Source of the DNA: Pyrofollis japonicus
GTDB taxonomy: Archaea; Thermoproteota; Thermoprotei_A; Sulfolobales; Pyrodictiaceae
DNA: 64,000 nucleotides
Assembly (NCBI RefSeq): GCF_033097485.1
Contig: NZ_AP028634.1
Span: forward strand, 434,001 to 498,000
Direction: 5' to 3'
This document shows positions 2,283-54,678 of the stretch, piece after piece. The notes beneath the pieces are model-generated. The model ran no database searches and had not been told where the DNA came from. It worked only from the letters and a program-made list of their open reading frames with translations. The position numbers and the translations under genes were made by a program. How positions within the stretch are numbered: the first letter of the stretch is position 1; the number at the start of each line of letters is the position of its first letter.

Positions 2283-3068
2283 ATGTGTCCTCATTGTGCT
2301 ACCAGTAGCGGAGAATTTAAACTAAAAGGTTTTGACCCTGTAAGGCTCGGTCTGCGTTTAGAGCAGCTCGTGCAAAAGAACTCCTCAAGGAAGTATTATC
2401 GCTTTCGTGCAACGCGCTTCTACGGAGGAATAGCGACCGGCGATGTTGTGGGCTGTAATCTTAGGTGTATTTTTTGTTGGAGCGGACGTGCACGTGATGA
2501 CCCACGGCTCGGCTTCTTTGTTGACCCGGAGCAAGCATTCAACAAGCTTCACAGAATTGCTTCGCAGCATAAATATAGGTATATAAGGCTCTCATATGGT
2601 GAGCCAACAATAGGGTGGAGGCATCTAGTTAGTCTCCTAGACCTAGTAGAGAGCAGCAACTACATCTTCATACTCGAGACAAATGGCATACTTCTTGGTG
2701 CTTTTAAGGAACGAGCCCGCGATTTGTCGAGATACACTAGACTCCATGTGCGAGTTTCTATAAAGGCGTGTAGCCCTGAACTCTTTGCAAAGCTCACTCT
2801 CGCAAAGCCTGAAGGTCTTGAATACCAGCTTGCAGCTGTGAATAATCTTGCTGACTACAACGTTAGCTTTCACGTGGCGCTTTTTCTTTCATACGGGGAC
2901 GATAAATGCTGGCAAAACCTAGTTAATAGGCTTATAGAAATAGTAGGGCCAAGAATAGTTGATAACATCGAGCCCGAGTACCTAGTACTTTACCCTAATA
3001 CAAAGCGAAGGCTCAAATTCTACGAGAAGATACTAGGTATAAAGCCTAGGATTGTTTATGAGCCTTAA
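2283..3068 (+). CDS. Radical SAM protein
   Basis: A 261-residue radical SAM enzyme. The cluster motif CNLRCIFCW (C-x3-C-x2-C) lies near residues 59-66 and binds the [4Fe-4S] cluster that cleaves S-adenosylmethionine. The glycine-rich SAM-binding stretch SYGEPTIG and the strand ETNGILLG follow in the right order. An extra N-terminal CPHC pair (residues 2-5) may hold a second metal. It looks closest to PflA-like archaeal proteins. It lacks the short core expected of QueE, so I do not assign 7-carboxy-deazaguanine synthesis. Its stop overlaps the start of the next small gene by 11 bases, implying co-translation. Confidence 0.75.
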   Translation: MCPHCATSSGEFKLKGFDPVRLGLRLEQLVQKNSSRKYYRFRATRFYGGIATGDVVGCNLRCIFCWSGRARDDPRLGFFVDPEQAFNKLHRIASQHKYRYIRLSYGEPTIGWRHLVSLLDLVESSNYIFILETNGILLGAFKERARDLSRYTRLHVRVSIKACSPELFAKLTLAKPEGLEYQLAAVNNLADYNVSFHVALFLSYGDDKCWQNLVNRLIEIVGPRIVDNIEPEYLVLYPNTKRRLKFYEKILGIKPRIVYEP

Positions 3069-3450
3069 GGGTGATTCTGTGGGCGGCCTAAGAATAGATT
3101 TAGATATCGTGAATAAGCCATTGACAAGCCCCCACCTGGAGCTTGTTCTCAAGGATCCGGTTGAATTAATGATTAGACTCTCTTGTATATTATGCTATAC
3201 TTCCACTAATCGCTTCAATGCCTTGAGCGAGGACGCTCTTCGCTTCATGAATCATCTACTTCTAGATTTGTACTCCGCGGTAAACGTGTACTCGGATATT
3301 ATTGTCGAGGACAGACGCATTGGGAGGAGTATCTGTCCTATAGTGCGAGGCATTCATTGCAGTAGCATCGAGCTGGCAAATAATAAGGATCTAAAGCTTA
3401 ACGTTAAATGCAACAATTTGGAATATTCTTGTACCGTAAAAAGCAGCTAG
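3058..3450 (+). CDS. Hypothetical protein coupled to the radical SAM gene
   Basis: Not recognised. The ATG at 3058 lies inside the end of the radical SAM gene (11-base overlap), giving 130 residues starting MSLKGDSVGG. It contains several cysteines (SCILC in the middle, then CPIVRG, HCSS and KCNN further on) that could bind metal. It has no membrane segment. The coupling suggests it is a partner or substrate of the radical SAM enzyme; that is inference. A TTG at 3052 in the same frame is possible but less likely. Confidence 0.6.
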   Translation: MSLKGDSVGGLRIDLDIVNKPLTSPHLELVLKDPVELMIRLSCILCYTSTNRFNALSEDALRFMNHLLLDLYSAVNVYSDIIVEDRRIGRSICPIVRGIHCSSIELANNKDLKLNVKCNNLEYSCTVKSS

Positions 3451-3456
3451 AGTCGA

Positions 3457-3516
3457 AAATCAGCAAGGTGGGCGCAGTCATCGTTCCTTCTCCTATGTGC
3501 GTAACCTCATCATTTC
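3457..3516 (-). ncRNA. C/D box guide sRNA candidate
   Basis: On the minus strand a perfect C box ATGATGA (3513-3507) is followed by a 22-base segment, a C'-like ACGATGA (3484-3478), the 14-base guide CTGCGCCCACCTTG, and a perfect D box CTGA (3463-3460). C to D spans 54 bases, the usual size of archaeal C/D sRNAs. The expected D' box is degenerate (AGGA-like). Short complementary flanks could close the kink-turn stem. A TATA-like AGTAAATTAAACACG lies about 30 bases upstream (around 3540-3555). By the D+5 rule the D guide would direct 2'-O-methylation of a G in a target reading CAAGGTGGGCGCAG. The target was not identified. Confidence 0.55.
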
Positions 3517-3761
3517 ATTCAAAAGCACGTATTTGTATTCGCGTGTTTAATTTACTATAGTTATGTTGGGTCGGTGCTGCGCGGCTCTTCATTATATTTC
3601 CGACCTTTCGAGCCTCGTCATCCCCGATTCTTCTAGTATATCGACTACGCTATTTGTTACACGTTAATTAACATATGTTTATTATAGCGTTGTTCCCCCT
3701 CTTGGATAATACCTTAATGCTATGAGGCGTGTATGTATTACTTCTATAGTGGCGTATTACG

Positions 3762-4892
3762 ATGGGCGGTTTCAAGCTTATTCTTGGGACGCCAATCCAA
3801 GCTGTTCCCCGTCCATGGCTCCATCTTCCGATTGAGGGGGTAATGGTCAATGCCTATGAAATACTCAACTATGGATTAAGCAAGGTCCGCGGAAGAGGGT
3901 TACGTAAACTTCTCGGATTGGATAAGACAGATATTGAACTATGGATAGACAGCGGCGGCTACCAATTCTTATCAAGGGGGGTGAACCCAGGAGTAGATAA
4001 AATAGCTAAGGTGTATAGAGAAGTTGACGCAGACTTCTATATAGGTCTCGATTTCCCGCCAGGCCCCCGAGATGACAGTCGTACTCGGGCGATGAAAATA
4101 GCAAAAACTGTGTCAAGCTTTATGAGCTTGAAGAACATGTTAAGAGGTCTCGTTGAAGAAGGTAGGCTTATTCCCGTATTTCACATGGCTGTTGGGGAGT
4201 CGCTAAGGCTCCAGCTACGCATATATGAATCACATAGCATAACGGCAGCGGTTGGCGGCCTCATTCCTCACATTATGCAGCTCTCGGGTAAAGGTTCTAG
4301 GCTAAAAGCCGTCATTTTTCTCATGCTTTTACGGAAGCTCTGGAGAGGAAAGCTTCATGCATTAGGCTTAGCATCTGCTGCCATGATTCCGCTACTGAAG
4401 GCTATCGGCATTGATAGTGGGGATACACAGACATGGAGACATAAAGCCGCTTACGGGAAAATAATTATCCCCTCTATGGGTGAAAGGCATATCAGTGGAC
4501 GTAGGGTTCGGTTTGGTCCTGCTGTATTGAAGCCTAATGAACTCCCGGTTTTCGAGCATTATGTTAAGAAAGTCTCAAGTATCCTCGGCACCGAGATTTC
4601 ACCAATGCTTCTTTCGCAGAACTTTGAGGCACGTGCACTCTTTAATGCCTACGTTCTCTTAGAAATGGCAAATAATGGCGCGGTTTATAGAGGTCCTAGT
4701 AAGGCCTTCTTGAAGCTATTTGAGAGGATAGAGCAGTTCAAGAAGATGAGCGCTAGTGAGCTTGAATCTGAGCTGGCAAAACTGCTTGCTCTACAAGAGG
4801 AGCTTGTTAACGAGTATCGTACGGTGAAAACAGTTAGCGATGTAAGTACTGGCGTTCTTAGTGCGGAGATAGAGGCTCGTAGCCAAACGTAG
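3762..4892 (+). CDS. TGT-superfamily protein lacking the zinc site
   Basis: Homologous to tRNA-guanine transglycosylases, which swap guanine for 7-deazaguanine bases. The base-pocket motif DSGGYQF is at residues 63-69, ADFYIGLDFPPGP follows near 90-102, and GIDSGDTQTW near 216-225 sits where TGTs carry the nucleophilic aspartate block. The 376-residue protein contains no cysteine at all, so the C-x-C-x2-C...H zinc site of canonical TGT is absent. There is no PUA domain; the last 60 residues are helical and charged. It could act on tRNA, on DNA (as DpdA paralogues do), or be non-catalytic. The ATG at 3762 follows a clean gap. Confidence 0.7.
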   Translation: MGGFKLILGTPIQAVPRPWLHLPIEGVMVNAYEILNYGLSKVRGRGLRKLLGLDKTDIELWIDSGGYQFLSRGVNPGVDKIAKVYREVDADFYIGLDFPPGPRDDSRTRAMKIAKTVSSFMSLKNMLRGLVEEGRLIPVFHMAVGESLRLQLRIYESHSITAAVGGLIPHIMQLSGKGSRLKAVIFLMLLRKLWRGKLHALGLASAAMIPLLKAIGIDSGDTQTWRHKAAYGKIIIPSMGERHISGRRVRFGPAVLKPNELPVFEHYVKKVSSILGTEISPMLLSQNFEARALFNAYVLLEMANNGAVYRGPSKAFLKLFERIEQFKKMSASELESELAKLLALQEELVNEYRTVKTVSDVSTGVLSAEIEARSQT

Positions 4893-25200: not shown

Positions 25201-25339
25201 TGGTGGGCCCGGGGGGATTTGAACCCCCGACCGCCGGGTCTCTCCCTCTCATCCATGGGCCTCGACAGACCCAGCGCCTGGACCGGATCCCCTTAGGGGG
25301 TCTGGAGCCCGGCGCTCTGCCTGGCTGAGCTACGGGCCC
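25201..25339 (-). tRNA. tRNA-Trp (CCA) with 62-base intron
   Basis: Exon 1 (25339-25302) carries acceptor GGGCCCG, the D-arm and anticodon stem CCGGG with loop start CTCCAG. Exon 2 (25239-25201) supplies A38, CCCGG, T-arm GGGGG-TTCAAAT-CCCCC, CGGGCCC, discriminator A and encoded CCA. The intron (25240-25301) sits at the canonical 37/38 site. CTCC/GGAG can form the central helix with AGA bulges on both strands, a somewhat relaxed bulge-helix-bulge. Inside the intron GGGTCTG (25272-25266) is complementary to CAGACCC of the anticodon loop and stem. Confidence 0.93.
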
Positions 25340-54551: not shown

Positions 54552-54678
54552 TGGTGGGGCCGCCGGGATTTGAACCCGGGATCACCGGCGCTCCGGCCAC
54601 GCGGGCCGGGGACACCACCGGCCCTCGCGGGGACTGGTCCCCAGGCCGGCATCCTGGACCAAGCTAGACGACGGCCCC
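54552..54678 (-). tRNA. tRNA-Pro (GGG) with 48-base intron
   Basis: Exon 1 (54678-54639): acceptor GGGGCCG, D-arm, stem CCGGC and loop CTGGGG. Exon 2 (54590-54552): C38, GCCGG, T-arm CCGGG-TTCAAAT-CCCGG, CGGCCCC, A, CCA. The intron (54591-54638) is at the canonical 37/38 position, and a clean bulge-helix-bulge forms: stem CCGGC/GCCGG, bulge AGC, CTGG/CCGG helix, bulge GGA, then CCA/TGG. Confidence 0.93.

Follow-up and report, generated by a model that had tools for sequence, protein, structure and literature searches.

Introduction

In archaeal C/D box small RNAs (sRNAs), L7Ae binds the kink-turns formed by boxes C/D and C'/D', and Nop5 and fibrillarin then join. The fifth guide base upstream of box D or D' marks the target: fibrillarin methylates the 2'-OH of the base paired with it (the D+5 rule). 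Here we describe a candidate of this class, RNA A, and its neighbour, RNA B, in a 64,000-nucleotide (nt) stretch of the Pyrofollis japonicus genome (positions 434,001 to 498,000 of NZ_AP028634.1, a single contig of 2,005,174 bases). This stretch is called the window, and all coordinates refer to it. A preliminary description of the window had proposed RNA A as a 2'-O-methylation guide. Comparison with other genomes confirms the candidate as a real, conserved RNA gene of a known archaeal kind, and RNA A very probably belongs to the archaeal C/D box sRNAs. We consider it likely to be a double guide that directs methylation of 23S ribosomal RNA (rRNA) at G1272 through its D' guide and at G1240 through its D guide, both in the GTPase-associated centre.

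The targets of archaeal double guides often lie no more than 100 nt apart, and such guides may help folding (PMC4644070; PMC7994747). Transfer RNAs (tRNAs) are targets as well: a third paper gives U34 of tRNA-Gln(UUG) in S. acidocaldarius as a predicted site, and G47 of tRNA-Leu(UAA) in P. furiosus as a site that was predicted and not detected by its authors (PMC7668247).

Features of RNA A

RNA A lies in a 311-base intergenic gap between an open reading frame (ORF) that ends at 3450 and one that starts at 3762, referred to below as the anchor gene. Its features are as follows.

3456..3517, minus strand: RNA A, predicted C/D box sRNA gene; match to model R1 at 3516-3456, 49.4 bits
3507..3513, minus strand: box C, ATGATGA; T8, G9, A10 and G12 invariant in alignment A1
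3495..3506, minus strand: D' guide, GGTTACGCACAT; core GTTACGCAC at 3505-3497, complementary to 23S 1270-1278
3491..3494, minus strand: box D', AGGA; degenerate, with GA retained
3478..3484, minus strand: box C', ACGATGA; T40 and G41 invariant in A1
3464..3477, minus strand: D guide, CTGCGCCCACCTTG; core GCCCACCT at 3473-3466, complementary to 23S 1238-1245 or 2420-2427
3460..3463, minus strand: box D, CTGA; C57, G59 and A60 invariant in A1

The score is to be read knowing that RNA A is itself one of the 16 sequences from which model R1 was built. The preliminary description had reported perfect C (3513-3507) and D (3463-3460) boxes on the minus strand, 54 nt apart end to end, an internal C' box (3484-3478) and a 14-nt guide before D (3477-3464), and it was right on each. 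The guide between C and D' is 12 nt long. At equal spacing, box D' of homologues reads CTGA in locus L006 and CCGA in locus L047. GAAA and UUUU of RNA A could pair as a closing stem around C and D, as seen by eye in its own sequence and unscored in relatives.

The same description had placed a TATA-like box about 30 bases upstream. The stretch concerned, ATACAAATA at 3538-3530, is weak and lies 17-25 nt upstream of box C; relatives showed no such element at a fixed distance from RNA A (by eye, unscored). As a description of AT-rich sequence the promoter remark holds, and beyond that it is not supported.

Conservation of RNA A

When 197 genomes of the order were searched at the DNA level, a single homologue stood out clearly, in a genome of the same genus (G144, 83% identity). 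Besides this and RNA A itself there were 21 weakly matching loci, of which 19 were inspected (L016 and L018 were left out). Five are true homologues in other families (L006, L012, L013, L015 and L017); the remaining inspected loci look like chance.

We read the sequence upstream of the anchor gene in 16 Pyrodictiaceae loci and searched it with a pattern; 14 of the 16 have RNA A there. It was absent from that position in G076 and G139; in G076 it lies on a contig other than that of the anchor gene. In genome G088 RNA A occupies this gap too, but on the other strand. Alignment A1 comprises 16 sequences. We dropped L044 (G134) and L047 (G112) for their diverged D guides, as well as L006 (G187), where the D half was not found; the D guide pair counts over 14 family members given below do include G134 and G112. 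The columns that never vary in A1 make up most of box C, GTTACGCAC, and isolated positions in C', the D guide and D. The loop between D' and C' varies in length.

The sequence-only model R1 matched 55 of 229 genomes of the class at E<=0.05, and the weaker of these matches may be chance. At E<=1e-4 it matched 35, of which 19 lie outside the model set (manual count of the listed places). By family these 35 are 16 in f1 (the organism's own), 10 in f9, three in f3 and two each in f4, f6 and f10. Family f11 gave only two R1 matches, both marginal. Within f1, 17 of 20 genomes match at E<=0.05, and the three misses (G100, G129, G139) are 61-75% complete.

We aligned 31 RNA A loci, namely the best-scoring 30 plus L006. 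Among them, GTTACGCAC is present in 31/31, GCCCAC in 22/31, GCCCACC in 15/31 and a terminal CTGA in 19/31. The invariance of GTTACGCAC is partly built in, because the pattern that chose the 16 model sequences demands it; of the 15 non-model loci, 14 were chosen without that pattern. The best-conserved part of RNA A is the D' guide, which the preliminary description had overlooked. Its proposed look for the boxes in relatives finds both boxes and guides kept in other genomes.

Predicted targets of RNA A

The D' guide forms nine Watson-Crick pairs, D'+3 to D'+11, with the organism's own 23S rRNA at 1270-1278 (GTGCGTAAC). This puts its fifth base opposite G1272, the aligned counterpart of E. coli G1091. 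For the D guide core, GCCCACCT, 23S rRNA offers two perfect 8-bp sites, at 1238-1245 and 2420-2427, so that the fifth base would fall on G1240 (E. coli G1059) or G2422 (E. coli G2235). From this guide the preliminary description had derived a 14-nt target, CAAGGTGGGCGCAG. The whole of it is absent from the organism's own 16S and 23S rRNA; a part, AGGTGGGCG, does occur, in 23S at 2420-2428, and AGGTGGGC is also found at 1238-1245. A genome search with a 12-nt piece of the target, allowing up to two mismatches, gave 149 places against 66 for a control and was uninformative.

A 23S gene was found in 6 of the 20 family genomes. All RNA A target sequences are unchanged in five of these (G000, G028, G039, G056, G018). 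The sixth, in G129, is divergent (77% identity) and keeps GTGCGTAAC and a 2420-like site but not the 1238 site. Over 14 family members the D guide forms 133 of 168 pairs at the 1240 site and 114 of 168 at the 2422 site. Relatives therefore modestly favour 1238-1245 over the GGTGGGCG site at 2420-2428 of the preliminary description, as far as base pairing tells. In family f9 the guides read AGCCCACTCCG.

A search of tRNAs, which the preliminary description had also recommended, gave no good RNA A partner among 46 tRNAs of the organism. Across 45 of them the best pairing of the D guide was weak and broken, and none of the D' guide rose above threshold; the 46th candidate (54555-54678) showed no pairing either.

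If RNA A is transcribed, L7Ae would bind its C/D and C'/D' kink-turns, and Nop5 and fibrillarin would follow. The D' guide, on 23S 1270-1278, would direct formation of 2'-O-methylguanosine at G1272, and the D guide, on 1238-1245, methylation of G1240. Helices 43-44 of 23S rRNA form the GTPase-associated (L11-binding) centre. Because both predicted targets lie there, 32 nt apart, RNA A may also help this domain to fold.

Alternative explanations

The boxes by themselves say little. RTGATGA plus CTGA at the spacing of RNA A has one match in the window, as against 0.97 per shuffled window, and is present at least once in 124 of 200 shuffled windows. With an internal NGATGA added there is again one match in the window and none in 200 shuffles. 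Since this second pattern was written to fit the candidate, it overstates the surprise, and conservation has to carry the claim. A chance C/D motif, which the first pattern would allow, is contradicted by the presence of RNA A in other genomes and is hardly to be believed. Nor is the stretch likely to be a regulatory or 3'-end element of an adjoining transcript rather than a guide RNA, an idea we rate very improbable: the G088 copy lies on the opposite strand of the gap, the G076 copy is off the contig of the anchor gene, homologues occur in five other families, and the parts that do not vary are boxes and guides. Boxes, guide spacing, synteny, conservation and complementary 23S sites together support the archaeal C/D box guide that the preliminary description had proposed.

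Which bases such a guide would act on is less firm, and several observations weigh against G1272 and G1240 as the pair, or against the assignment to the class. In the organism's own genome the D guide forms 10/12 pairs at both 23S sites, a tie. Permuted 8-mers have a perfect 16S/23S site in 22% of cases, so the D guide alone is weak evidence. G144 has one additional base between D guide core and box D, which shifts the register, and the D guides of G134 and G112 have diverged. Box D', AGGA here, is degenerate in most relatives, and its distance from C is 12 or 13 nt (by eye), so the D' target could be G1091 (E. coli numbering) or its 5' neighbour. The minimum-energy fold of RNA A is no better than that of shuffles (z -0.64, kink-turns not modelled). 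Its best Rfam match, sR7 (RF01310), shares box layout and strand with RNA A, but the match reaches 16.1 bits against a cut-off of 37 and the guides do not correspond. A perfect 16S/23S site is found for 1.1% of permuted 9-mers, and in 4 of 20,000 permutations both guide cores have matches no more than 100 nt apart. By these rates the D' match counts as good evidence; so does the joint placement of the two, but the D match taken by itself does not. If the D guide instead methylated G2422 at 2420-2428, the two guides would bridge distant parts of 23S rRNA. CGCCCACCT matches the organism's own 2420-2428 by nine Watson-Crick pairs and the 10/12 count equals that of the other site, but the family pair count is lower at 2422, and the 1240 site and the D' target are 32 nt apart, a close spacing of the kind usual for archaeal double guides (PMC4644070). 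We regard G2422 as rather unlikely. One or both guides of a genuine C/D sRNA might also be orphans or aim at another RNA. Orphan guides are common according to PMC7994747, and the D guide varies in relatives, as the GCCCAC and GCCCACC counts show; against this stand the invariant D' core with its perfect 23S site and the lack of a good partner among the 46 tRNAs, and we hold it clearly improbable. The double guide to G1272 and G1240 remains the reading we prefer.

A second RNA in the gap

The same gap holds RNA B, a second predicted C/D box sRNA, more widely conserved than RNA A.

3566..3627, minus strand: RNA B, second predicted C/D box sRNA gene; match to model R2 at 3627-3566, 60.1 bits
3615..3621, minus strand: box C, ATGACGA; relatives often have ATGATGA or ATGAAGA
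3603..3614, minus strand: D' guide, GGCTCGAAAGGT; GCTCGAAAGG in 44/44 aligned matches
3599..3602, minus strand: box D', CGGA
3586..3592, minus strand: box C', ATGAAGA
3575..3585, minus strand: D guide, GCCGCGCAGCA; CGCGCAG in 40/44 aligned matches
3571..3574, minus strand: box D, CCGA

RNA B is one of the 14 sequences that built model R2. The 44 aligned matches are 43 distinct ones (the window's own copy is also locus L160), picked among the better matches. GGGG precedes RNA B and CCC follows it. Every box here is one or two bases off consensus, and relatives are often canonical; outside the family the boxes often are, and the D guide is usually CCCGCGCAGG. Across 14 family sequences the guides hardly vary, while the D'-C' loop differs in length. 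Model R2 matched 197 of 229 class genomes at E<=0.05, including the 14 model genomes, and the weakest of these matches may be chance.

No convincing site for RNA B was found in the organism's own 16S and 23S rRNA, and its guides are probably aimed at tRNAs. The complement of its D' guide, CCTTTCGAGC, occurs at 26 places in six genomes, six of them RNA B itself. By ARAGORN, three of the other 20 lie in the anticodon loop of tRNA-Glu(UUC) (G018, G020, G036). One, in G042, is called Ser(CGA) by ARAGORN, and we read its sequence by eye as an intron-bearing tRNA-Glu(UUC); the remaining 16 are outside tRNA genes. The tRNA-Glu(UUC) loop is thus matched in 4/6 genomes, with the fifth base of the D' guide on U34. 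Apart from RNA B, the exact D' complement occurs at six places in the organism's own genome and at three in G028. All of these are outside tRNA genes, which disfavours a perfect tRNA-Glu target in these two. The organism's own tRNA-Glu(UUC) (L092) has A37 where four relatives have G37, leaving 11/12 pairs with an unchanged D' guide. Its tRNA-Glu(CUC) (L097) has a mismatch at base 34 itself.

The complement of the D guide, CCTGCGYGGG, occurs at 32 places in four genomes, four of which are RNA B. The 26 other places that were located comprise 11 tRNA-Leu (ARAGORN), five intron-bearing tRNA-Leu by eye, one tRNA-Ser and nine elsewhere, and tRNA-Leu is among them in 4/4 genomes. With the organism's own tRNA-Leu the D guide forms 8/11 pairs in three genes and 7/11 in two. 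In relatives, then, the guides of RNA B would fit the wobble base of tRNA-Glu(UUC) and the variable arm of tRNA-Leu; in P. japonicus the fit would be imperfect.

RNA B and RNA A stand in tandem on the minus strand, about 50 bases apart. The two are on opposite strands in G088, RNA B is elsewhere in G018, and both are on a contig other than that of the anchor gene in G076. Because these arrangements differ, the two RNAs behave as separate genes, though in this genome they may share a transcript.

Neighbouring genes

3052-3450: ORF of 132 codons bordering the gap
3762-4892: anchor gene, distantly TgtA-like (archaeosine tRNA-guanine transglycosylase; TIGR00432)
25204-25339 and 54555-54678, minus strand: two tRNA genes, detected with Rfam and not by ARAGORN

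The 132-codon ORF had no Pfam or NCBIfam match at E<=1. By eye, a similar reading frame is apparently present at the equivalent position in locus L004. The anchor gene scores 23.3 bits against TIGR00432, whose cut-off is 350, and had no match in a Pfam search. It is present in 17/20 family genomes, and its closest named relatives are from Pyrodictium and Pyrodictiaceae metagenome-assembled genomes. Many family loci share, 5' of the anchor gene, a TTTAAC.CG.GTTTATTATA-like stretch (at about 3660-3700 in the window; by eye); it is perhaps the promoter of that gene. The two tRNA genes are longer than usual and so perhaps intron-bearing. The one at 54555-54678 is also absent from a whole-genome tRNA list of this organism.

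Implications

Taken together, the gap may hold two old guides. We put forward tentatively, as somewhat less probable than otherwise, that RNA A clamps and methylates two strands of the GTPase-associated centre as a folding aid, while the nearly class-wide RNA B links two tRNA sites, the tRNA-Glu(UUC) wobble base and the tRNA-Leu variable arm. If so, RNA A would be a folding aid for the site that triggers elongation factors in archaea living at very high temperature, and the near class-wide spread of RNA B would run against the view that archaeal guides evolve fast. The locus is of moderate interest through the predicted target in the GTPase-associated centre and the widely conserved neighbour. 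The two predicted methylations of RNA A fall in a part of the ribosome that is central to its function and is absent from the listed 23S hotspots. RNA B is matched in most class genomes, and its predicted tRNA sites are directly checkable. Archaeal C/D sRNAs are under-annotated.

Comparison with known systems

Both RNAs remained below the Rfam cut-offs in the window, in 15 family loci, in 20 RNA B loci and in 18 RNA A loci; relaxed thresholds gave sub-threshold C/D families only. A literature search, which covered passages or sections of some papers and listings of the others, showed no mention of the predicted sites of either RNA, and G1059 appears in none of 15 papers listed in one such search. 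Orthologues of RNA A and RNA B may already bear sR numbers in published lists.

RNA A resembles archaeal C/D sRNAs in its boxes C, D', C' and D, its guides of about 12 nt and its two close 23S targets, and also in being intergenic, near an ORF end and in a cluster of two sRNA genes. It differs in its degenerate D' box, and its sites in helices 43-44 (domain II) are not among the 23S hotspots listed in PMC4644070 and PMC7994747. A parallel in the former is the conserved group of Tte sR114, Iho sR21, Pca sR28 and Sac sR115, in which the two guides of an sRNA likewise aim, in a number of crenarchaea, at conserved rRNA sites close to one another. The targets of this group are in 16S helix 18 (PMC4644070), whereas RNA A would target the 23S GTPase-associated centre. 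The predicted sites of RNA B are of the same kinds as those in PMC7668247, namely base 34 and the variable-arm base before C48. RNA B differs in that its base-34 target would be tRNA-Glu(UUC), that both guides are on one RNA and that most class genomes match it.
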